A stretch of 21,331 bases of DNA, from NCBI RefSeq assembly GCF_000003605.2, contig NW_003122908.1:339157-360487 (forward strand), read 5' to 3'. This document shows positions 5,221-18,859 of the stretch, in pieces. The position numbers were made by a program, and so were the translations under genes. Under the pieces are notes generated by a model. The model did not search any database. It worked only from the letters and a program-made list of their open reading frames with translations, and was not told the origin of the DNA. Source of the DNA: Saccoglossus kowalevskii (taxonomy: Eukaryota; Hemichordata; Enteropneusta; Harrimaniidae). Every line of letters begins with the position of its first letter. Within the stretch, counting starts at the first letter, position 1.

Positions 5221-5277
5221 ATGAAAGTCTTAGGTCTGTTCATTGCAATATACTGCAGTGCATTCAGTGTGGCTGCT
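5221..5277 (+). CDS. Exon 1: start codon and signal peptide
   Basis: The 19 codons read MKVLGLFIAIYCSAFSVAA, a short Lys-containing n-region, a hydrophobic core and an A-A cleavage site. The donor GTAAGT follows in phase 0. The ATG has G at -3. The product should enter the secretory pathway. The next exon begins NNGKG, so cleavage probably falls at or next to the exon junction. Confidence 0.85.
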
Positions 5278-8200
5278 GTAAGTATCATTTAAATCGTGCT
5301 TTAAAAGAAAACACAAATCGATTTTTAAAAAAAAAACTGCTTGCTTAGGAAAAGACCGTCTCCCTAATATGAGTATTTTTCATGTTACAAAAAGTTAAAT
5401 ATCTATTTGACACGCTTATTTCTTAGCTTCAAATTGTTGAACATCAGAGTGAATATTTTTAGTACTAACGAGAGAGTGTTGGCGTTCGCTGAAGTTTACC
5501 AAAAGCAAAATTGTATTACAGGATTTCAATTGACAACCACGCTAGATAATAATTTTGCTATTCACTATATTTGATGGAAATTGTTTGTATGAAATAGTAG
5601 TTAGGCCAGGGAAATCTACCACCTCTCGCTCGAGGAAAAATTATCATAATTATAATAGTTCTTTCATTAGTTATTTCATTGATTTATTATTATGGCATGG
5701 CCAGATGCAAAATCATTTTGGATGAATATTCTTAAATTTATTTTTGAATGGAAAACTTTTTGTTTAACATCTCTGTAATTATGTGATCAGTGTATTTTGG
5801 AAAGTCACAGTAATTGTGTAGACATTATCATAAAATTGGTGTGAATTTATTTATCATGTTTCATAATTTGGATGACATTCATTCACAAAACTCATATCAT
5901 AAACGATAAACTCAACTGTAATTTTTCTGATTGTATTGTATATAGTTTATTTTCATTTTCAAAATCCAATACTTTTATGTTCTGACGCACGTGAATGTGA
6001 CGCTGAAGATAGCTCTTTTACATGTCATTAATTGCAAATAAACAATTAACCTTATTAATTGGATTCAAAATAATTGTGTAAATGAAAGTTGTATTCCCAT
6101 TTTCTATGATCCGCACAGTTCATGGGAAGTCTCATTCAAAACATTCTTGTAATCGAATTTAGACTTTCCCCTTAAAAGTCAGGCAAGTATGTCTTTGAGT
6201 TGTTGCAACATTACAAATGATGCTTGATTTGGTGATTAAAAATCACCAGACATGTCAAGGTTCCAGTATTCCAGGAAATGATTTTATTATTTGTTATGGT
6301 TATCACAATAATCATTTAGAGTGTCCTGCATATAATGTAAAATATTTTGAAAAGTTGCATTTCTTTGTGTTTGATAAATGCTATGTTTTTTTTTATTTCC
6401 TTGTTCGTAACAATCTAGGAGTAGACGTCAAGCGTTAGGAATCCGCAGTGATTTAACTTTACCGAGGAAAATAAAAATGATTTCCATAAAAATTGCAATC
6501 ATGATAGACGGCTCAATATGTTTTGTTAACTGGATATGTTTACAGACGAAAATTCACAAGTTACATTTTGCTTCCCTCTAGACTATAATTATCATTCTAG
6601 TTATCTTTTGAGGGTACATGGAGAATAAAAAAAACACTCATGGTCGAAATAATATTTTTAGATTTAGAATTATAGTGCTCAATGATGTATAATCAATTTT
6701 ATTTTTGTTCGTCGCATTTAATAAATGTTTACTATCCACTTCACGATACGATACTTTCAGTGCACATTACGTAATGGCCGCAATTTATTTGATGTTTAAT
6801 TAGCTCAGGGGAGTGCAAAGTTGTCAGAATATCAAAATTCACTGTAAGTAAATAAATACACGTTTGAGTAAACAATTTGTGAATCAAATTATATCAGATG
6901 ATGATCGTCTATGAAGTTGTTGGAAATTATATTTGCATATATCGTAATACAGTTAAAATGTTTTGTTCGAAGTATTTCAAAATGTATCATTCCGACGTAA
7001 CTGCACTTATACGGGGATGAATATGTCACTTTCCAAATGTTTAAATGCATAAACTAAGTATATAACGTATACAATGTACATTCAACTATTCTCAGTTGAG
7101 TTATTCGGAATAATTTTGTTTTGTGTGACACGTGTTATAACGCGCATGCATAGTCTATCCGGGAAAGCTTAGATAGAATTGTAATACTATTTCTGTCTCT
7201 GATTGTCACGTATTTCTGTGTAGATTTGTATACATTTGCGTTAGTATGATTCTGAGTTAATCTTCATTGAACTAATTAATAGAGGATGTTGTTATAGTAT
7301 GTACAAAGTAAATGTATTACTTTTAATTAATACGTGGTTAGTACAAATGAACAGTAGATATCCAAATATAATTGCTGCATTTAGTAAAGCATGTTATTGG
7401 AGATACGGACAGGATGCATGGTTTTCTAGGAATTGACACGTCTATAATGTGCATGAAAGAGCTCTACACAAGTATTTTGCCTCTCATAATAATGTATGAT
7501 AACAACTATAGCTCAATAAATGTTTTCCTACTCACCCAGTAGTTGTATGTGAAGGATATGCCGAAAGTTCTGTGGACTCTTTTATAGTTCAACAACGCAC
7601 TTTTCCCGAAATGACATTTCTCCAAATTAGTACAGGACTTATATTTTTTATGAAATCCGCAGCATTTTCTAGACGCGAGAAAATCAGGTTTACCTGTGTT
7701 AATTGGTGAATGATTTCGGATTTAGTAACCCAGCTTATACTAAAAAGCGGTTCTAAATGCGCGGACCTCGTAAAATATATTCGCATGGAGTGGTTGTTGA
7801 CTGATCTCACGAATTCTTCATTTCCAAAAGGAAATGCATGGCAAACCAACGGACAACTACACTCAATCGAGTTATGTTGATTAAGAGACAACCAATCACA
7901 TCTATAAGCCGGTAGTGCTGAGTCAACCTGTTATATAGACTGTTAAATGAAATATAGTTCACATAAATATAACGAGCATACGAGCATTCGAATCCACGAC
8001 CAAGTTAGAGCAATTGGCGATCAATATGCGATGTTTGACATGTTATGCCACGTAATACGTAATACAGTGTATATTTCTGCATTAACTAAATTGTATTTTT
8101 CAACTATAAAGGTGTAATGATATTGGCAAATTGGGTTTAGAAGGTAGAATCTATCCGACTTGTTCCCTGTTTTTCTTCCGTTTCTTCTTTGCTCTCTCGG

Positions 8201-11200
8201 AGAAAATGAAACATTGCGACATATGCCACTATATTAATGTCTCCGATCTTCACTTTTTTTATTCGAAGAGTTATGAATGTTTAATATTGGTGATGCATTA
8301 ATCACGTAAAAGGGTGCTTGGCGCCGCGGCGGCGGTTTGTTTCTATTACAAAAATGTTACAAATAGATTGACACATTGTTCTCTTTGTGTCATCTATTGG
8401 TGCAATACAATAATAAATACCCGTAGAATTCCAACGTAACATTTAATTACTCTCTTTATTATGTATATGCCATTGTGCATAAAAGCTACTGTTATATTTC
8501 GGCGTTTAATGTTAAGCTGATGTATTGACGGGAAAACGGGCGCCAGATTATTGGAACCGTGTCTACACTTGCGAAGTCGACCTTTGCAAATAAGTTTAGT
8601 TTTTGCGACAACTGTTGGAGCCGTCTCACACGTGGCACTTTCTGCAACTGGGGACTATGAGCGTCAGTCCGGTGAGAGGGTCGAGAAGAAAGTGCTTATG
8701 TTCACCTTAAACGTTTATGTGCCGGTCAGACAAGAACATCGAAATGACTTGTCTGCCAACTCATCTGTCCAATCGACAGGCGAATCTATTATCTTCAATT
8801 TTTGTGACATATTAGAAGAACGTGGAAATTAAAATATTAATAATAAATTAACAGACCGCAAACTTGAGCAATTATTATCTTGAGTAATTTAGGACATGTG
8901 TGTCTGTTTGTCTTCTGTATTGCCTTTTATTCTAATACCCATATTTCTATAGACATCGCTCTTCTTCTACCAAAGTCGATAATTCAACGATTGCTACTGT
9001 TTTGATTTTAATATTTTATATGTTCCGCAAATAGTTTCCAACAAATAATGCTCCATTCATGTCATCGTGCACGTTTTCCATTGTGATTAATTATTTATTG
9101 TCTGTTGTTTGTTTGTTTGTGTCAACGCGTTCATTGATTGGAATACATTCTCCACGTTTATCAAAATATAATAAACATTAAGCATAATGTAGTTGAGAAG
9201 AAAATAAAAGGTTCATGTCATTTTAGAGAGCAAAATTTGTAGATATTGAAAAAGAAAATAAACTAAAAATATATATTGCTTTCGTTGCCCAGTATACACA
9301 ATATGTTCGTCTATTGTAATTATGTAGAATAATGGCAAAGGACATACTCATAGTAATGGCCAAGGACACGAATCACATGGACAGGGAAATGGCAATGGAC
9401 ACGACCCGAATTTCACTGGAGCACAGTGTACGTATGAAGGTAAGTTGGTTTATTTATACATCTGCAAACAGTTTATAGTCACTGTAAACTATTTCACGAT
9501 CATCATTACGTGCACTGTTACAACTACACTGTCGATATTTCCAACATAAACGACTTGTATTATTATTATTATAATGTATTATTATACACACCACATGCGT
9601 GTATGTATATATATCAGATGGCCAGGAAATATGCGCATACTGAATTATGATTACGTTTTAATATTTTATAATAACTTAGTTTGATATTCAATTTCGATAA
9701 AAACAATATTATCTTCAAGATAAGCACGTTTTCAATAATTGCAATATTTTGTTTTTCAAGCAAATTGAAAAACATTGGATTTATATTCGGTATTTCGTAC
9801 AGATAATTTGTTTAAGTGCACGAAACTTTTTCATCATGGATGGATGTTGCTTACATTGTTTGTTTTGGTCTCTCGTTGTTTTGTGTGTGTTTTAACCTAG
9901 AACATCGGGAGTGGTCATGCACACTCATATAGGTACTGCAATATAATAATATCACCCGCAACTGTGTAATAACTGGTAATAAATCTAAATAGTCTAATCT
10001 AATTGACCGAGATCTTCTTTGGTTTTCGATACAGATGGCAGACCTAACATAGTCATGTTTGTGGCCGATGATTTTGGTGAGTCCACTTTTCAACATACTT
10101 TTAACGATACATATCACATGATCTAAAGTTATTTTGTTCTGTACTGAGAGGAGATTTCTTTACTTATCGTCTGTGTTGTCTATTTACTTCGCAGGTCGCT
10201 GGGGTGAAGATATCATGGATGACGTCATTCCTAACATTATACGCATGGGCTCAGAGGGCGTCATTTTGGATAATTCGTACGTTCTCCCCACAAGTTCGCC
10301 GTAAGTGTTGGATAATTCCATCTTTTCGTGGTCAAAGACCGCCATGAGACCATTTATTATTTCTCTGTATTTTTTAGTCTAAAATGTGACGCGACTTAAG
10401 TTATATAAATGGTTAATTAGTCTGATTTTCACTCTAAAACGTTTACTACGTTTACAGTACGAGATCAGCCTTATTGACTGGATACATGCCACACAGAACT
10501 GGAATGCAGGTAAGCATATATTTTTATCACTACATAATTTAAGAGCTATTGCAATTCAACTGAAATCGACAATATTTAAAGTTGTCGGCCACAATAGAGA
10601 TTCGTATATTAAAAATTTAAAAACAAACTAGTATAACACATTTTTATTTTCAGTTTCATACTATATACCCGAGTGAAGGTTACGGCTTACCGATAAATTT
10701 TGAAATTCTGCCCCAGAAATTGAAAGAGCTGTGTTATACCACCTATGCCATTGGCAAGTAAGTATATAGTGCAAGAATGTGGATGCCTTATGCTACGTCA
10801 CAGAATTACTTGTTTTACTGAAAATTAAGACTATATTGCATACACCACCATATGCCATCACGATCGCAATATAGTTGTGTGCGTTTTCTACTACAACCTC
10901 CGTTCGTATTTCGACTTTATCAAATGAATGTTAAGAGTATGTTGAACTATATTCACAATTAACCGTACGGTGCAATGTTGATTTACCACTCGTCATCATA
11001 AAGATCTTAGACGTACTTGGCCGTCGAGATCTCGATGAAAAAGACAGAGTCACGATATTTGTTTTTGCTCCTCAAATAGTAAGTCTCACCACCATTGCTT
11101 GTACTGTTCCCCTGACCTATGCAACAGTGGGATTTGTAATAGAGAGCGCAATGAATGGCAAGAATATAATGCTCTTCGTGTGGCAAACACAAGTCTCGAG

Positions 11201-14200
11201 GATTTCTCGCTTTTAACGAGACCTCGGCGTTCTTTTGCGTTAAAGATCTATTCAAGAAGGTTTCACACTTGACAATAAGTTTATCCTGTCACGTCTAAAA
11301 AGCACACGACACACAATCATAGTTTTCCGTCTCGTGAATACAGGTGGCATTTAGGTTTCTGTGCTGATGAATACCTGCCGCAAAACAGAGGATTTGACAA
11401 GTTTTACGGCACGTACACCAGTGGTGTGGATTATTTTGATAAAACCTCAAGTGATGCCTTGACTGGTACGTATACGATCCTACAAATGTTTTCTCTTGAT
11501 TTTCTTTACTTTTATGTATTAACATATACTTTTTCCTCCGTCGTTAATGACATTTTTTTTATTTGAAACGTAATTGTTCATACTATACTTTACCTTGGTA
11601 TTGATGATATTCCTGGTAAATGGAAAGCAGCCATAAATACAAGATTAAAAGACAACTCAGGAAATCAACCTTTATCTAGTCATCTCAGTTTCCAACAACA
11701 TTTCTCAGACGAGCTGAATTTGCCACTATACAGACTTGAAAAACGGCCCTACATACAAATACCTCATAGCGGTTATGAACAAAATTCGGTCATCCGGACA
11801 GACTTGACACTGTGTGGCATGATCCCTCAATACCGGTGTTGAGGGACTGTGGCGTGATCTACTGGCCTTGCCTTCAGATATTAAACCCAATTTCAAAGGG
11901 TGTTATACTGCCCCCATCACAAAACCTGGGGGAGATTTGCAATGGCGTGTAATACACTACTGCTGTTTTTTTTTGCCAGGGTAAATTTTGCCGATTCTGA
12001 AAACTGTCCACTTTGTGGTGACCTGGATTCTCTCATTCATATTTTTATTGAATGTCCGGCGATTAACGCCCTCATTTCTAGCATTTCTACTGACTGTATT
12101 TTTACAAATTGGTTTGACGGTTCCTCTTTGGTGGTTCGTTATTTTGCCACCTACTCACTACTCACGTTGTTTTCTCTCTCGTCAGTGTGGGAGTATTTTT
12201 CTTTTTATCCATTATCACTGCAAAAGTTGCTATCCATAACTCCCGGCGGAATAAACGGGAGGGGAGTTCTTTTGTGGATTCGTTGGAAATTCTCAAAACT
12301 ATCACCAGCAGAATTAAATCTGAAGATCAGTACTTCAAACTTGTGAAACAGAAGGTCAGGTTCGAATACATTTGGACAACAAATGACACTCTCTGTTCCT
12401 TGGAAAATGGAAAATTACAAATCCATTTCTGAACTTGACTTCAAACTGTTAATGGTTCAGAGGTCGTTTTACACTTCTGTTATTCAACTTGTCATTTGGT
12501 TCAATCTTGTTGTTTCATGTCTGTGCCTATTTCAATACATCTCACCCAACGCCGTTGCTTGTTTGTTTGTTATTACACTACACGTTATGTGTTTGTATAT
12601 GTTTTTTTATTTGCCTTAGAATTTGGCAGGGAGGGGTCGTAACCTCTTGCAGTGAGAACCAATGTGACTGGCCTGCCAACGGGGTTCTAAGGGTTGTTTT
12701 TCTGAGTTAAATGTGAATCCCGTGAATCATAAATCACTAATACTTAATCTTATTTATGTTCAACAGGTCAATCAGCGTACGATCTTCATCAAAATGACAA
12801 GACAGTAAAAGCTAATAATAACAAGTATTTGTCGGTAAGTGTTAACTCTTTAAACAAATAACAATCATATAGGATAGTTTCTCCATACAATTATTGATAT
12901 TAATGCTATGTGCTCGCCTCCGCCTCGGATAGCGTATGTAAGCTTGCCTGCTTTGCACATGATACAGTAAAGAGAAGATTGCTGTGTCTCTGTATTAGAT
13001 ACCATTATCTCAATACCCATGCAAGCTGTCCATTTGATGCAACAGCCAATACATAGATACATCGTACAAACAAGCAAACAACTAATCAATTATTTACTCG
13101 TTTTATTCTAATATTATTGTCTCTAGGAGCAATGTTTGAACAAAGCCACTGATCTTATTAGCGAACACGATACGGCGAACCCATTATTTATGTACTATGC
13201 GTTTCAGTTAACGGGTTCTCCTTTACAGGTAAGACGTATGATATTCATACCAATAACCTACGCAGAACGAGCAAATTATCACGTAATACCTGCGCATTGT
13301 AGGTGAGGTCATACAACGATACGATATATTTTCAGCCGCACCACTACGCACACATTACCTACGCGGGAAGTGCCGATAATGTGATAATGGGCCCTCTTTT
13401 TCGTTCAAGATAGGTAAACAATCAGTAATAGTTATGAATATGGAATTTATCCTCTGCCGACTTTCAACGGGTAAATCATGTATTATACATGTTACAGGTC
13501 CTAGTCTAGCACCTACATTGATAGATCACAATATTAAATTCTATCGTTTTATACAGTCTTGTATACTCAAATGTATCTATGTATATATTGACAATTCACA
13601 GTAATATGCCATAACCACTTTATGCATGGTGTTTCAAATACGGGACACCAAATTGTATTGGATATAAATCCTAGAATAAACGTGAGTTATAGAAGTCATG
13701 CTTTTATATCAATATTGGTATAAACTTTGTGGTTTAAATACCTGGGTATAAATACTGCCCCTTTTGTGTTAGGGCTTAGTAGAGTTAAATTCCCTGGCTC
13801 AGTGTATATTATATACGTACTATGAACAAAATTACTGACTTGTTCAAATAGTATGCTACGTTCACTTCTATAGGCACCTCAAGAGAAATTGGACAAATAC
13901 AATGACGAGAATCCAGAGAGACGCGCATTCAAGGGTAAGGAATATGTACGCACGTGCGTAATTGTTGTCACGTGATAGCTACCATATTGTATTATAACAT
14001 ACACAGATATTTTCAGTTACGGGAGGTTACGTCATGATGATATATAAGTGAAAGATCATTTCAGCAAAATCGTGATTATTAAACTTCAAATCGCGTGAAC
14101 TTGAAGGTCGATGCATAATATTCGATATATCATGTACCACTTAACGTGTAATAAACAGCAACCAAGTTTAAAGGGCCGCAGTCGTCGTGCCGCGTCCATT

Positions 14201-17200
14201 TCGATATGGACTCATAGCGACGTATACAACGCGTGTAAAATACATTGTTTCCATGAAATTCGAACACGCGCTGTGCGACGACCACCGCGCTTTAAGTACA
14301 AATCATAGCGTTTAGTTGTGTAACTGACGTTATAGACACGTGTCAAGCGATAAGTTTCTCTTGATTTACAGCAATGGCTTCCGTGATGGACGATGCTATA
14401 CAAAGCGTAGTCGATGCTCTTCAGGAAAAGGGAATGTTGGATAATACGTATATCGTTTTTCTCAGTGATGTGAGTATCGACCATCATGACTCTTGGCAAT
14501 TTTACGAATAACTTGGTTCAAATGAGCGCAACGGCACTGGGTTGTAGCGATAGTAGCAGTATCTCGTCATGGGAAACATTGATGAATTTGTGATCGATCG
14601 ACATCTGTTCAGTTGTCTAGGTGTCGTGAACAATGTACCCCACCCTTTTTTTGATATCACAAACGTCATATTGATTTTGAGCTAGTATCAACAAATTATG
14701 AAAACATCGAGTGGATACATTGACAACGATTTATCGTTAACCAAAAACGTTTCTTTTTTCTTGCAATACACGCAATTTAGTATTCGTCCTATGAAATAAT
14801 GAAAACACGTTAAAACGCATGCGCACTGATTGTTCGGCTACGTCAAATAAGAATATGAGTACACATGTCTATTATTGGTTTTCATTCATCATCGAACGAA
14901 TATTATTGTGTGTGATAAAAAAAAAAACGACTCTTTCAATTTAAGATGAACCGTGTTCCAAATGTCAATATTTGTTTTGGTGTTACTATATTATTTATTT
15001 ATTTTATAAAATGTTATATTTCACAGAATGGTGGCGAAGTAACTCAGGGGGGAAACAACTGGCAACTGCGAGGTAACAAAGGAACACTCTACGAAGGAGC
15101 CATGCGTACACCAGCTTTCGTCTGGGCTAAGCCTGGAACTGACTTGATGGCCACTGGCGGAGAGGTGGCTGATGGGTGAGATTATTAGGAACAACCATAA
15201 CGAAGAAACTAAAGTACATTCAGTCATAATACAAAAATACAACAATGAACTTTATAGCATTTATATGTTGGCACGCATCGAGTGTTAATAACAACAGCAC
15301 AGGCGTTCATAATTATGACGCGTGCTTCCTCGTTGTAAATAACAGCATATTGAAACATAACGCTCATGAGTGCACCACAAATGTAGGAGAATGCAATTTA
15401 CATGTGTTTATATCACTTTTCATTCTCTAGATATTAAACTTTGCATTAGTATATGTAGTTAACCAACTTGATTCTCCCGCAAAGGATCATTGATAAAGTA
15501 TGACATCATCGGTAGCATCTGTTGTGAACAATTGAGGAAATGAGTTTCATCTATAACTTCCATAAAATTGGTTGAAAGCATAGAACATGGTATCATTATA
15601 GTATAATTCTATAGACGAGTAATACGCACACTGAAAATTCTAACTAATTCGCATCAATATTTCTCAAGTTATGGGTTATTTCTCAACTGTTTGCAGCCTT
15701 CTAGTGTGTTGTGATGTCATATTTTACCCATGATTCCTTGCTGGAAAATCAAAAATGGTGGAATTGAAACGATTTAGTTGCTATAGATATATAATATAAA
15801 TTGTTTTGGGCCATTGCCGTAATGGATATAGAAAAATGCGAGTAAGTTACACCAACACTAGCCAGTGAAGTTAGACTAAGCTTGTTCAAATGTCGCAAAC
15901 CATGTTTTAATTGTGTCTTCCATTTCAGCTTCATGCACGCCGTTGATTGGTTCCCCACAATCCTTAGTATCGCAGGAGGTATTAATGACGGTAAATTGAT
16001 ATTTCCTAGTATACATTCATTAAATGTATTTGTATCTTTACAACGCGGATGCTGGCGTCTAGTTCTTTGTATAACGGTATAGTAAAACTTGAGTACCATG
16101 TTTTGGAGCCATATCTTTTCCACAAACTTTATTAATTTATCACTAACTGTTCTCATTTCAGATGTAAACATGGATGGTAAGGACCAGTCGGTAATGCTGT
16201 TAAACGATGTGTCTGTACATCTCCGTACTGAGTTCCTGTATGCGTTGGACGAAAGCATGGACGCGGCAAACAAGAGAGCTTATAGGTAAACTATGGAATT
16301 GTTACATATACTATTTAGAGTCTATTGTTACAACACACTGCGTCCCGATTAAGTGATATAAATGTAAGTTGTCAACCTGTGGCCACACGAAATTACGTAA
16401 CACCGACGTTTTAAATCACCACAGTAGTATCTTTGCGACGTTTACGCAAAAAGCAACCATAGCCTACCCTGTGCATGTTCCCCTAATTTGTTGTTTATTC
16501 TAGGTTTGGAGATTTCAAACTTATCGAGGGTGAGCCATCATATATGTATCCAGTGAGAATCAATGACGACACCGGTATGTACACTACACTGCACTACACT
16601 ACACTGCACTGCACTGCACTACACTGCACTACACTGCACTGCACTGCACTGCACTACACTACACTACACTACACTACACTGCACTGCACTACACTACGGC
16701 AGAGGTCAGTGGTCGTTGAGAGATCAAAGTTCAATCTCAACCTTTTGACTTTTTAGTCTATTTCGGTATAGAAACGATCAGATCGTGTATGGGGCCTTAT
16801 TACTGCTTTTCAAGGATTGAACAGCAAACTCAGACAAAATATTGATAAAATAGAAAGTATGTATTTAAAAAGATGAATATATTTATTATGGAAATTCCTG
16901 AATTATTAATAAAACATTTGCCCTGGAATGCTCTTGAGTTTCATTCAAATTCAAAGAAAACGCTTTCATTGTCTATAAAAACTGTTTGGTCACCCGTGAG
17001 TCTTTGCGAGTTTTCTTCAATCTTCCGCTGGATCGGTCAAATAGAAATTGGCTACGAAAAAAAAAACAAAAAAACTGTTTTTTCATTGTTCTTTGACATG
17101 CGTTGGCAATTTATTTATTTTTATTTCATTCAATTGTGTTATTTTAAATTTTCATGCAAAAACAGAAATTCACTTGACAAAAAAATAAAAATATATTTTT

Positions 17201-18859
17201 TTTTTTGAAAGTGCGTTAAACAATCTACTCATAATTACCAAGTCAACATTTGTTCTTATTACCAAAGACTTTTTTCTCTTCTTTATTTCAGATGACGTTT
17301 TTGTTCTGCCTTACGGTGCTGTCAGTCCAGTCATCACCAACTATAGTCCAATCATTCCCGTGCCTGGAGAACCAGTACCACAGCCAGCCCCAGCTCCATC
17401 AGTGCCCCAGACACTATTGTATAATGTGAAAAGTAAGCCTTAGTTCTTTCCTTTTAGTACTGTCTTTATATATTTGTTTTCGTAAAGGGCAAATAGCTAT
17501 TAATTAACCTTTCAATATAGTTCAAATTATGTATTTTGGTTCAGTGTTTTATGTAGAATATAAAAAATTCCAAAAAATTCAGAACACATGTTGCCTGCCT
17601 TTAATAGTTTTATGATGCAACTGAATTGCGTCTATTCCGTAACGACAACTTTGCACTCATCCATTCGTTGCCCTTGCGCTTGCATGAGAGTAACAGGTGA
17701 TATTATTCTAATATCTGTATTTTGTTATATTTAAATTCCACAAATAGAAATGAATTAGATTTACATTCATGGTAGAAGTACGGTTTAAGTTTGTTTAAAA
17801 CTGAAAGCATATCATATACGCTATATACTGACGTTGCAGGTGAAAACAAATGATGACCGCGGGGTTCAAAGTTACGCTCAGGTCTCTAGAGGGCGCCATC
17901 TATTGAAAGCCATTTTGCCATGTGAATCTCAGAGATTACGTACAAGATGAGCTGTTTGCGTCGTCATCATGAGCCAAGCCTCTCCCAGATGGCCTTTCAC
18001 TGATGGTTTTATTTGTCATTTGCTATAATAGTGTGCGCCGTGTGTCATAATTGTGTACGGTCTCTATCACGTGATCAATTACAAAGAAATTGCGACAACT
18101 CGTGCTTTAGTTTTCACACTGCATTTTATGTAACATTAACCTTTTCTAGGGTCGCTTTGCTCATGTAATTGTGTTTGAAACAATATTTTGGTAAGATTTG
18201 GTCACCTTTATGTGGTTATATTCACGCAAAAGTCACAGCTACTCTAGCAGTCTGTATAACAATTCGCTCGAACCAACTTGAACTTGTTCCGTGCTTATTC
18301 TGATATTTGAGTCACCCCACCCCTAGACAATTTGAAAACGAAGTCAAGGACGCTTGACAGTTGAATACAACTTTCCCGTAAAGTGACGAGCCAATTCCCG
18401 TAAAGTGACGAGCCGATTCTGTGACGTCAAAATGAAGTGTTTGGATGGGAACAATGTCGTTAAAATCGACAATTGTGCTTGGTTGAGTAGTTGTTCTCAT
18501 ATAGGATATAGTCAAATCTCACAAATACATAATCGAATAATTATCGACGAGTCCGCGAACTGCTTACTTAAACTTGCCAACCCCAAAACTTAGAAGGAAC
18601 AATGCTTATATTTCTGCGAATGAATTGAACTCAAAATATTTTTCTCGTTTCAGATGACCCTACCGAACAAAACAACCTCGCTGGGAATTTCAGAGTGTAC
18701 GTTCTCATTCTATCATCTAAAATCAATATGGAGCGTATTAAAGGGGTAGAAAGTCTGAAGTTGAATGAAACCGCATGGAACAAAGACGTGGCCCTCTATA
18801 ACGAAATGATTGCTGGCGGTGTCTGGATGCCTGGTTGGTGCAGCGCAATCAGTCTGTAA
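5221..18859 (+). CDS. Secreted arylsulfatase B-like protein, 17 coding exons, probably catalytically inactive
   Basis: Joined exons: 5221-5277, 9328-9439, 10035-10076, 10195-10300, 10458-10509, 10654-10757, 11344-11465, 12767-12834, 13127-13228, 13874-13934, 14372-14469, 15027-15175, 15929-15990, 16162-16285, 16504-16574, 17292-17432, 18654-18859; 558 aa, all introns GT-AG and all phases compatible. Residues 1-19 form a signal peptide, 20-48 a His/Gly/Asn-rich linker, and about 59-550 a sulfatase fold. Motifs seen: RPNIVMFVADDFG (59-71), SSPTR (104-108) followed by SALLTG, GKWHLG (157-162), SDNGG (307-311), GGNNWQLRGNK (316-326), and DPTEQNNL (492-499). The family hydrolyses sulfate esters of glycosaminoglycans in lysosome or extracellular space, using a formylglycine made from Cys. 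Here that Cys is Ser104, and the catalytic His of the S-V-H-E-P motif is Gly251, so hydrolase activity is doubtful. Possible N-glycosylation sites are Asn47, Asn460 and Asn528. The closest human relatives by motif order are ARSB, ARSI and ARSJ. Family assignment is very secure; loss of activity is inference. Confidence 0.95.
5278..9327 (+). other. Intron 1 (4,050 nt)
   Basis: The longest intron of the gene separates the signal peptide from the rest. It is mostly AT-rich with nothing recognisable. Exceptions are a CpG-rich patch at about 8320-8340 (GGCGCCGCGGCGGCGG), a more GC-balanced stretch at 8520-8830 holding an open frame of about 90 codons without a good start, and a TTTG run near 9106-9121. 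First-intron position makes regulatory content plausible but unproven. Confidence 0.7.
9328..9439 (+). CDS. Exon 2: His/Gly/Asn-rich N-terminal segment
   Basis: The exon enters in phase 0 after ...TATGTAG and leaves in phase 1 at GTAAGT. Its first 26 residues are built almost only from Gly, His, Asn, Gln and Ser with recurring G-H and N-G pairs. They are followed by DPNFTGAQCTYE, with a possible N-glycosylation site at Asn47. This low-complexity stretch has no counterpart in human ARSB as I recall it. It could be a flexible or metal-binding tail. The acceptor's pyrimidine tract is weak, but phase agreement on both sides supports the exon. Confidence 0.8.
9440..10034 (+). other. Intron 2 (595 nt)
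   Basis: AT-rich intron with an ATT/TTA trinucleotide microsatellite at about 9558-9586 and a TG/TA run near 9598-9615. Nothing else is recognisable. Confidence 0.75.
10035..10076 (+). CDS. Exon 3: first metal-binding motif
   Basis: A 42-nt exon, phase 1 to phase 1, encoding DGRPNIVMFVADDF and the first base of the following Gly codon. R-P-N-I-V is the usual start of a sulfatase domain, and Asp68/Asp69 are the paired Ca2+ ligands of the family. Confidence 0.93.
10195..10300 (+). CDS. Exon 4: start of sulfatase signature, with Ser at the formylglycine position
   Basis: Phase 1 in, phase 2 out. It encodes residues 72-105 and two bases of Pro106. The end of the exon, Y-V-L-P-T-S-S-P, aligns with Y-V-Q-P-L-C-T-P of ARSB. 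Ser104 (AGT at 10293-10295) therefore occupies the position of the Cys that animal enzymes convert to formylglycine. AGT is one base away from TGT (Cys). Confidence 0.93.
10458..10509 (+). CDS. Exon 5: rest of sulfatase signature
   Basis: A 52-nt exon, phase 2 to phase 0, reading T-R-S-A-L-L-T-G-Y-M-P-H-R-T-G-M-Q after the split Pro106. Arg108 and the LLTG block are conserved sulfatase signature elements. Confidence 0.94.
10654..10757 (+). CDS. Exon 6: region leading to the G-K-W-H motif
   Basis: Phase 0 in, phase 2 out. It encodes residues 124-157, including I-L-P-Q-K-L-K-E-L, which matches the family's helix of the L-P-Q-L-L-K-E-A-G type, and T-T-Y-A-I-G before the split Lys158 codon. Confidence 0.94.
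10758..11343 (+). other. Intron 6 (586 nt)
   Basis: GT-AG intron that splits the Lys codon of the G-K-W-H motif. It contains open frames only on the opposite strand, with no recognisable product. No repeat was seen. Confidence 0.7.
11344..11465 (+). CDS. Exon 7: K-W-H-L-G motif and R-G-F-D-x-F-Y-G
   Basis: Phase 2 in, phase 1 out. It completes Lys158 and gives W-H-L-G-F, then N-R-G-F-D-K-F-Y-G-T and D-Y-F-D. These are the standard family landmarks after the catalytic Lys/His pair, and Lys158 and His160 are both retained. Confidence 0.94.
11466..12766 (+). other. Intron 7 (1,301 nt), host of a LINE remnant
   Basis: Phase-1 intron with donor GTACGT and acceptor ending CAACAG. Most of its length, from roughly 11575 to 12710, is a degenerate retrotransposon fragment in the same orientation as the gene. 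The flanks are ordinary AT-rich intron. Confidence 0.8.
11575..12710 (+). mobile_element. Degenerate 3' part of a non-LTR (LINE) retrotransposon
   Basis: Three frames give successive pieces of one LINE ORF2 C-terminus. W-R-D-L-L-A-L-P-S-D-I-K-P begins at 11850 and runs to G-D-L-Q-W-R-V-I-H. After a shift at the T-run near 11966 comes N-C-P-L-C-G-D-L-D-S-L-I-H-I-F-I-E-C-P (12002-12058). After a second shift near 12200 comes R-F-E-Y-I-W-T-T-N-D-T-L-C-S, ending at TGA 12430-12432. C-x2-C-x7-H-x4-C is the zinc-binding module at the end of many LINE reverse transcriptase proteins. A further degraded piece lies at 11615-11840. The element is 5'-truncated, frameshifted and inactive. The 3' boundary is estimated and no target-site duplication is clear. 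Confidence 0.8.
12767..12834 (+). CDS. Exon 8: short exon downstream of the LINE-bearing intron
   Basis: A 68-nt exon, phase 1 to phase 0, encoding G-Q-S-A-Y-D-L-H-Q-N-D followed by K-T-V-K-A-N-N-N-K-Y-L-S. It corresponds to the 'DL..N...Y.T..F' region before the A-x-x-L-I helix. It is shorter than in ARSB, where this stretch carries extra residues. Confidence 0.9.
13127..13228 (+). CDS. Exon 9: helix, P-L-F-M-Y-Y-A-F-Q strand and degenerate catalytic-His motif
   Basis: Phase 0 to phase 0, 34 codons. N-P-L-F-M-Y-Y-A-F-Q-L-T-G-S-P-L-Q aligns without gaps to K-P-L-F-L-Y-L-A-L-Q-S-V-H-E-P-L-Q of ARSB. The catalytic His position is Gly251 (GGT at 13214-13216). Confidence 0.94.
13229..13873 (+). 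other. Intron 9 (645 nt) with a possible cassette exon
   Basis: Phase-0 intron. Within it, 13336-13413 is preceded by a pyrimidine-rich TATTTTCAG and followed by GTAAAC. That exon-like block is 78 nt long and ends in an in-frame TAG. The remainder is AT-rich without recognisable content. Confidence 0.6.
13874..13934 (+). CDS. Exon 10
   Basis: A 61-nt exon, phase 0 to phase 1, encoding A-P-Q-E-K-L-D-K-Y then N-D-E-N-P-E-R-R-A-F-K. It matches the family's V-P-E-E-Y-L-K-P-Y region after the catalytic-His loop. Confidence 0.92.
13935..14371 (+). other. Intron 10 (437 nt) with a TTAA-bounded element
   Basis: Phase-1 intron containing an unusually CpG-rich block (14168-14295) described separately. 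The flanks are AT-rich. Confidence 0.7.
14168..14295. mobile_element. Possible MITE-like element with imperfect terminal inverted repeats and TTAA flanks
   Basis: TTAA at 14168-14171 and 14292-14295 bound a CpG-rich segment whose ends are imperfect inverted repeats. About 20 of 27 positions match, with the core GTCGTCG on the left and CGACGAC on the right. TTAA target duplications are typical of piggyBac-type non-autonomous elements. Only about 128 bp long and non-coding. Imperfect termini keep confidence low. Confidence 0.35.
14372..14469 (+). CDS. Exon 11: M-D-D-A helix and strand ending in S-D
   Basis: Phase 1 in, phase 0 out. It encodes M-A-S-V-M-D-D-A-I (compare M-V-S-L-M-D-E-A-V), the amphipathic helix to K-G-M-L-D-N-T, and the strand Y-I-V-F-L-S-D. 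The last codon is Asp308, a metal ligand. Confidence 0.94.
14470..15026 (+). other. Intron 11 (557 nt)
   Basis: Phase-0 intron placed exactly between Asp308 and Asn309 of the D-N-G-G motif. It contains a short A-run near 14919-14930 and nothing else recognisable. Confidence 0.75.
15027..15175 (+). CDS. Exon 12: N-G-G, G-G-N-N-W and L-R-G-x-K motifs
   Basis: Phase 0 in, phase 2 out. The first codon is Asn309, completing D-N-G-G across the junction. Lys326 in L-R-G-N-K corresponds to the conserved late active-site Lys. L-Y-E-G-A-M-R-T-P-A-F follows, as expected for an animal sulfatase. This is the longest uninterrupted conserved exon. Confidence 0.95.
15176..15928 (+). other. Intron 12 (753 nt)
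   Basis: Phase-2 intron, donor GTGAGA, acceptor CATTTCAG. Open frames in it, the longest on the - strand over 15749-16273, overlap true exons or lack family content. No repeat was seen. Confidence 0.7.
15929..15990 (+). CDS. Exon 13: D-W-F-P-T-I block
   Basis: Phase 2 in, phase 1 out. It encodes F-M-H-A-V-D-W-F-P-T-I-L-S-I-A-G-G-I-N-D, the usual H-x-x-D-W-x-P-T-L/I block. A second GT donor exists at 15979, 12 nt upstream and also phase 1, so a form lacking four residues is possible. Confidence 0.92.
16162..16285 (+). CDS. Exon 14: D-G-x-D block and following strand
   Basis: Phase 1 in, phase 2 out. It encodes V-N-M-D-G-K-D-Q-S-V-M-L (the family D-G-x-D-x-W/S region), R-T-E-F-L-Y-A-L-D (compare R-I-E-L-L-H-N-I-D), and A-Y before the split Arg420. 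Confidence 0.93.
16504..16574 (+). CDS. Exon 15: R-F-G-D-F-K-L-I-E-G strand
   Basis: Phase 2 in, phase 1 out. R-F-G-D-F-K-L-I-E-G matches the family R-x-G-x-W/Y-K-L-L/I-x-G motif. The donor GTATGT at 16575 leads directly into a pentanucleotide repeat array. Confidence 0.92.
16575..17291 (+). other. Intron 15 (717 nt)
   Basis: Phase-1 intron that begins GTATG and at once enters a pentanucleotide array. Further on it has A-runs (about 17057-17081) and a T-run just before 17208. An open frame over 16873-17208 is AT-driven and not credible as a gene. Confidence 0.75.
16580..16697 (+). repeat. Pentanucleotide minisatellite (TRCAC)n, about 23.6 copies
   Basis: Uninterrupted 5-bp units, TACAC or TGCAC, 23 complete copies plus three bases. 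The two unit types alternate irregularly in the order A A G A A G G G A G A G G G G A A A A A G G A (second base). No indel breaks the register. The array begins 5 nt after the end of exon 15. Confidence 0.95.
17292..17432 (+). CDS. Exon 16: proline-rich loop and L-L-Y-N-V strand
   Basis: Phase 1 to phase 1. Residues 456-483 are rich in Pro (P-V-P-G-E-P-V-P-Q-P-A-P-A-P-S-V-P), a variable loop where ARSB also has several Pro. T-L-L-Y-N-V-K then matches the L-F-D-I-x-x-D-P-x-E strand, which is completed in the next exon. Confidence 0.88.
17433..18653 (+). other. Intron 16 (1,221 nt)
   Basis: Phase-1 intron. It includes a 22-bp tandem duplication at 18373-18416, a CRE-type TGACGTCA palindrome at 18422-18429, and a segment around 17880-18000 with AGAGGGCGCCATCT. 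The latter resembles the CTCTAG/GGCGCC-containing ends of dispersed repeats, a weak similarity only. Confidence 0.7.
18373..18416 (+). repeat. Tandem duplication of a 22-bp unit
   Basis: Two adjacent copies beginning TTCCCGTAAAGTGACGAGCC, differing by one base near the end (CA versus CG). Probably a recent slippage or duplication event inside intron 16. Confidence 0.9.
18654..18859 (+). CDS. Exon 17: C-terminus and stop codon
   Basis: Phase 1 in. It encodes N-D-P-T-E-Q-N-N-L, the typical D-P-x-E-x-x-N/D-L motif of C-terminal sulfatase subdomains. A charged helix-rich stretch and G-G-V-W-M-P-G-W-C-S follow, before TAA at 18857-18859. The W-x-P-x-W-C end resembles the tail of ARSB-type enzymes. 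Confidence 0.92.

Follow-up and report, generated by a model that had tools for sequence, protein, structure and literature searches.

A probable sulfatase-fold pseudoenzyme of Saccoglossus kowalevskii, related to arylsulfatase B, with serine at the formylglycine position

The window, i.e., the whole 21,331-nucleotide stretch of Saccoglossus kowalevskii DNA that was analysed, carries on its plus strand a single gene of 17 exons (positions 5221-18859; contig C1550), whose 558-residue product is probably a pseudoenzyme with a sulfatase fold, related to arylsulfatase B (ARSB), that most likely has lost sulfate-ester hydrolysis and is retained by purifying selection. Serine occupies the position of the formylglycine Cys (Ser104), and a second residue of the active site, a conserved His, is replaced by Gly251. 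Since this second loss and a sign of selection accompany Ser104, the observation is more telling than it appeared in the initial annotation, which missed the His replacement, the tandem paralog of the gene and a related group of genes with eroded active sites.

In the gene model all 16 introns are of the GT-AG type, their phases are consistent, and TAA in the last exon closes the reading frame; the product length of 558 residues given earlier is reproduced by this 17-exon model. The product is composed of a signal-peptide-like stretch, a His/Gly/Asn-rich segment, the PF00884 domain, a Pro-rich stretch and a C-terminal part. The match to PF00884 (residues 60-374, E 1.6e-47, 162.7 bits with a cut-off of 25) places it in the sulfatase fold family (S1), and the best PDB match is human ARSB (1fsu; E 2.4e-64 over residues 60-411), and the earlier description of an animal-type sulfatase, here ARSB-like, encoded by an intact gene holds. 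The N-terminus is inferred, by eye, to be a signal peptide. The features of the gene are as follows, each with its source.

5221..5277, plus strand: exon 1, start ATG and putative signal peptide MKVLGLFIAIYCSAFSVAA (called by eye; gene model)
9328..9439, plus strand: exon 2, His/Gly/Asn-rich N-terminal stretch NNGKGHTHSNGQGHESHGQGNGNGHDPNFTGAQCTYE (gene model)
10035..10076, plus strand: exon 3, PNIVMFVADDFG (gene model, 1fsu alignment)
10067-10072, plus strand: codons of Asp68-Asp69, the metal-ligand pair, in exon 3 (1fsu alignment)
10195..10300, plus strand: exon 4, ending YVLPTSSP (gene model, 1fsu alignment)
10293..10295, plus strand: Ser104 codon AGT at the formylglycine (Cys) position (gene model, 1fsu alignment)
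10458..10509, plus strand: exon 5, remaining signature with Arg108 and SALLTG (gene model, 1fsu alignment)
10654..10757, plus strand: exon 6 (gene model)
11344..11465, plus strand: exon 7, KWHLGFC with Lys158 (its codon split across exons 6 and 7) and His160 kept (gene model, 1fsu alignment)
12767..12834, plus strand: exon 8 (gene model)
13127..13228, plus strand: exon 9, PLFMYYAFQLTGSPLQ, with the Gly251 codon at 13214-13216 (gene model, 1fsu alignment)
13874..13934, plus strand: exon 10 (gene model)
14372..14469, plus strand: exon 11, last residue Asp308, a metal ligand (gene model, 1fsu alignment)
15027..15175, plus strand: exon 12, Asn309 and Lys326 (RGNKGTLYEGA) kept (gene model, 1fsu alignment)
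15929..15990, plus strand: exon 13 (gene model)
16162..16285, plus strand: exon 14 (gene model)
16504..16574, plus strand: exon 15 (gene model)
17292..17432, plus strand: exon 16, Pro-rich stretch VPGEPVPQPAPAPSVPQ of the C-terminal part (gene model)
18654..18859, plus strand: exon 17, C-terminus VWMPGWCSAISL and TAA stop (gene model)

The His/Gly/Asn-rich segment of exon 2 (9328-9439), which lies past the signal peptide, is a possible metal-binding or matrix-binding tail. A bacterial origin of the gene is rejected in view of its 17 exons and of ARSB as the best structure match. Intron 7 contains an insert (11620-12700) with a C-x2-C...H...C knuckle CPLCGDLDSLIHIFIECPAIN that resembles the terminal portion of a non-LTR retrotransposon (Pfam zf-RVT, E 0.073, below the cut-off), and intron 15 a tandem array (16580-16697) of TACAC and 15-base TACACTACACTGCAC units with 91% matches at period 5. 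Pfam gave no match over the cut-off for six further open frames (lowest E 0.027), Rfam at gathering thresholds gave no match in the window, and the six NCBIfam models that matched it were all far below their cut-offs. Elsewhere in the assembly, the mitochondrial contig (C4830, L103) carries COX1 on the strand opposite ND1 and COX2; ATA stands there at usual Ile sites, AGA (two codons in ND1) at Ser-like sites and AAA at Lys sites, which suggests a code with ATA as Ile, AGA as Ser and AAA as Lys. Such a code agrees with a hemichordate and not with echinoderms, whose mitochondria read AAA as Asn.

The serine itself, reported in the initial annotation, is confirmed: residue 104 is encoded by AGT at 10293-10295. 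The signature YVLPTSSPTRSALLTG is interrupted by an intron after SSP, with exon 4 ending at 10300 and exon 5 starting at 10458, and in the alignment with 1fsu the first S of SSPTR stands opposite the formylglycine position, where the PDB chain has Ala, taken to be the probable recording of the modified residue. In the 572 Mb assembly of the same species all 45 of the other sulfatase signature exons that were read carry Cys, thus Ser is not a habit of this genome. These exons (40 fetched and five in listed loci, repeats of one place counted once) represent 45 of at least 50 signature-exon places found with PF00884 among 131 scored of 169 candidates, a signature exon being defined by a PF00884 match that starts at profile position 1-11 and reaches position 53 or beyond. 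The window gene's own exons are absent from the PF00884 list used for this count, and the rows L001 and L028 (E 0.81, one place) and L101 (E 0.002) were dropped, their hits not being signature exons. The sulfatase repertoire of the genome is large, with at least 118 PF00884 exon matches, and several contigs hold more than one sulfatase copy, e.g., C843, C1420, C2107, C2176, C3460, and C1543.

Could the serine be concealed or only apparent? An error of sequencing or assembly at 10293, with TGT as the true codon, is suggested by the single base that separates AGT from a Cys codon and by the reliance on one assembly and one copy, yet the exon is otherwise undisturbed and the separate loss of His in both tandem copies lowers the expectation of a functional Cys; such an error is very improbable. 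A 563-base DNA query retrieved from the genome the full-length window copy, two fragments of the tandem paralog at 79%, and no second allele or haplotig. Similarly, the window showed no alternative, mutually exclusive exon bearing Cys when the whole product was used in tblastn at E 10: residues 71-106 are matched by the known exon alone, apart from a weak hit (E 0.94) in a different exon of this gene. The known A-to-I editing would turn AGT into GGT, a Gly codon, and not into TGT, hence RNA editing is an unlikely escape.

The second altered position, Gly251 in exon 9, is where the conserved active-site His is located, His242 in ARSB numbering, and the 1fsu alignment is ungapped across both altered sites. 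The statement that the rest of the signature is intact was therefore correct for Arg108 and SALLTG and does not extend to the active site as a whole. Compared with ARSB (S1_2), the window product shares the PF00884 fold and keeps Asp68, Asp69, Arg108, Lys158, His160, Asp308, Asn309, and Lys326; it differs by Ser in place of the formylglycine Cys, by Gly in place of the active-site His, and apparently by an additional N-terminus rich in His and Gly and by a Pro-rich stretch towards the C-terminus, both read from the window product. Consequently, what a functional S1 sulfatase possesses is found here as regards the metal ligands, the signature Arg, the Lys-x-His element and the second Lys, the active-site His is missing, and formylglycine, judging by Ser104 and by the lack of a hit for TIGR03942, which models the radical-SAM maturase, in an exon-by-exon search, would be missing as well. 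All 14 other sulfatase loci retrieved from the genome with a motif pattern for exon 9 have the His, a pattern that overlooks genes of other shape, the group on contig C843 among them. According to a published alignment, the His (AtsA His211) is present in 99% of 4058 S1 sulfatases (PMC5066984). Its replacement alone argues against ordinary sulfatase catalysis.

The same publication lists 857 sulfatases with a Ser nucleophile, all of them prokaryotic apart from a single tick entry and a single mouse entry (PMC5066984), in agreement with the rarity of Ser outside bacteria that had been put forward at the outset. Is the window gene then an animal Ser-type sulfatase, active after oxidation of Ser104 to formylglycine by an unrecognised maturase? 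The S-x-P-T-R signature has the form found in bacterial Ser-type enzymes, the majority of active-site residues are kept and the sequence appears to be under purifying selection. Against it stand the prokaryotic source of all but two of the published 857, Gly251 in place of a nearly universal His, and the maturation machinery of the genome. TIGR03942 gave no match in a six-frame, exon-by-exon search of the assembly, an absence that is not absolute, as such a search could overlook a gene broken into many small exons; in the control search the model had matches in 12 of 14 genomes, two above the cut-off. An FGE gene of the SUMF1 type is located on contig C300, with exons that include NMVGNAWEWTNDWW, followed by GGSYMCH and a further segment, these last two holding the usual pair of catalytic Cys, and is of the Cys-oxidising kind; further PF03781 matches were found on contigs C540, C2607, and C4451. 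With no TIGR03942 match detected exon by exon and an FGE of the Cys type present, the bacterial style of Ser maturation is not supported. The likeness to bacterial Ser-type sulfatases, matured by radical-SAM enzymes (anSME/AtsB), is confined to the S-x-P-x-R signature, whereas the window gene is rich in introns, closest to ARSB and devoid of the active-site His, and the dedicated maturase was not detected exon by exon. Thus the initial idea of a Ser-type formylglycine sulfatase is not upheld: a working enzyme of this type is unlikely, and its maturation by an unrecognised maturase in an animal is very improbable.

Evidence for selection comes from a tandem paralog that lies immediately upstream of the window gene (L012, L011; contig C1550). 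Its exons 5-14 equal those of the window gene in length and it shares AFQLTGSPLQ, hence Gly for His, while its signature exon, in which a Cys-bearing upstream twin was sought, falls in N letters; Ser104 was accordingly seen in one gene only and Gly in both copies. Over 313 codons of exons 5-14 the two copies are 84% identical, with dS of 0.464 and dN of 0.099, and the resulting dN/dS of 0.213 (95% bootstrap 0.15-0.31), which bears out the earlier assertion that this is not general decay, is one pairwise comparison with a frameshifted partner, in which the constrained lineage of the two is not told apart. In the same comparison dN/dS is 0.460 (0.26-0.75) in the less constrained exons 16-17 and 0.282 (0.21-0.38) in all exons but 15. 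In the tandem copy, exon 15 is one base shorter than its counterpart in the window gene and shifts the frame, thus this copy may be broken or misread. Since dS is lower in exons 13-14 (0.20) than in exons 5-9 (0.58), the copies may have undergone gene conversion, which could also account for the Gly common to both. Unless conversion spread it, Gly251 is older than the duplication. What is expected of a pseudoenzyme, i.e., catalytic residues lost under purifying selection, is therefore found here, as judged from a single pair whose partner is frameshifted in exon 15.

The alternative of a gene disabled not long ago, or of a private allele turning into a pseudogene, draws on the exon 15 frameshift as read in the tandem copy, on the two active-site losses and on the weaker constraint of the C-terminal exons. 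It is difficult to reconcile with a frame unbroken over 17 exons and splice sites that are all canonical, with the low dN/dS of exons 5-14 at a dS of 0.46, and with a Gly251 common to both copies and so, barring gene conversion, preceding the duplication; a pseudogene in the making is unlikely.

Sulfatase-like genes with an eroded active site are present elsewhere in this genome. The multi-copy group on contigs C843 (L088), C2602 (L101), and C2543 (L102), among others, resembles the window product, to which the joined catalytic domain of the C843 gene is 38% identical (122 of 322 positions). The group shares with the window gene KWHLGFC and the loss of the same His, replaced by Ala in all three genes read (FTLDIPAKHLE, NIDLPAKFPE, and SMDVPAKSPE). 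In contrast to the window gene, it retains the formylglycine Cys and, in both genes read at that position, shows Ala where the window gene preserves the active-site Lys (RGIAGTLFEGATR and RGIAATLFEGATR); the Lys-position exon of the C2602 gene was sought and not found. The kinship is also seen in the introns: of the nine that interrupt the window gene between residues 59 and 311, six are found at the same site and in the same phase in the C843 gene (donors after CTP, GNQ, VGK, YLA, HLE, and GD); the one in codon 71 is missing from the C843 gene, whose exon runs on, and the two that follow exons 7 and 10 could not be placed. The two ordinary ARSB-like genes compared differ in that four of the window gene's intron sites are absent from them: the gene on C1340 has no introns at the CTP, GLQ, and GK sites, and that on C201 reads through the PLQ site. 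In a 13-row tree of partial sequences, in which five of the ten inner branches are open and for which the program warns of long branches, seven ARSB-type rows including human ARSB are grouped together (95/93) with the window gene outside, and the window gene and its tandem copy join the C843 group (90/87). The shared intron sites are a stronger argument for this kinship than the tree. One may go further and propose that an ARSB-related duplicate founded a secreted family that was dismantled stepwise, either with His and Lys lost and Cys kept or with His lost and Cys changed to Ser, and that in the Ser branch unmodified Ser104 serves as an FGE-independent nucleophile or covalent sulfate trap, a chemistry that would be new for the sulfatase fold in animals; this is a speculative and quite unlikely scenario.

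How would the two substitutions abolish turnover in the probable pseudoenzyme? The roles of formylglycine and His follow the outline of the AtsA mechanism, as given in the same publication (PMC5066984). Ser104 that is not converted to formylglycine would provide no aldehyde hydrate to attack sulfur and release sulfate, and with Gly251 the His near the leaving group would be gone, so that the leaving group would be poorly bound or protonated and no turnover would occur. With Ser104 unmodified and Gly251 in place of His, little or no sulfate-ester hydrolysis is to be expected. The pocket, which retains its metal ligands, Arg and Lys, may still allow a sulfated glycan or a sulfate ester to be bound, and the protein may act outside the cell as a lectin-like binder, a matrix component or a decoy. 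Since catalytic residues are lost and yet the sequence seems to be under selection, a binding or structural role is suggested rather than sulfate cleavage, and because the metal ligands and positive residues are kept, a secreted binder of sulfated ligands or a matrix protein is favoured. A secreted sulfate-ester binder is what the sequence probably encodes, and this is the weakest step of the interpretation.

An active site in which most other residues are kept would equally fit an enzyme whose chemistry has changed. Ser or Thr serves as nucleophile in the alkaline phosphatase superfamily, and unmodified Ser104 might likewise act directly, in a phospho- or sulfo-transferase, an esterase or a one-shot sulfate trap. 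The kept metal ligands, Arg108, Lys158, His160, and Lys326 and the selection on the gene are in keeping with such a role, and Cys-to-Ser mutants of human ARSA and ARSB were reportedly trapped as sulfated enzyme. However, Gly251 removes the residue thought to assist the leaving group, and enzymes of the alkaline phosphatase type use a two-metal site; a direct nucleophile has a small but real chance of being correct.

To our knowledge, animal sulfatases are taken to be FGE-dependent enzymes with an invariant Cys, and a search of the open-access literature gave no paper that, judged by its title, dealt with sulfatase pseudoenzymes or inactive sulfatases. Sea urchin arylsulfatase, known as an active arylsulfatase, has reportedly been proposed to be an extracellular matrix protein; it is likened to the window product by description, as a secreted protein of the sulfatase fold for which a non-enzymatic role is suggested. 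Routine annotation would probably label the window gene as an active arylsulfatase. If it encodes a pseudoenzyme, it offers a natural test of which residues serve binding and which serve turnover on the sulfatase fold, and its product is a candidate sulfated-glycan binding protein.
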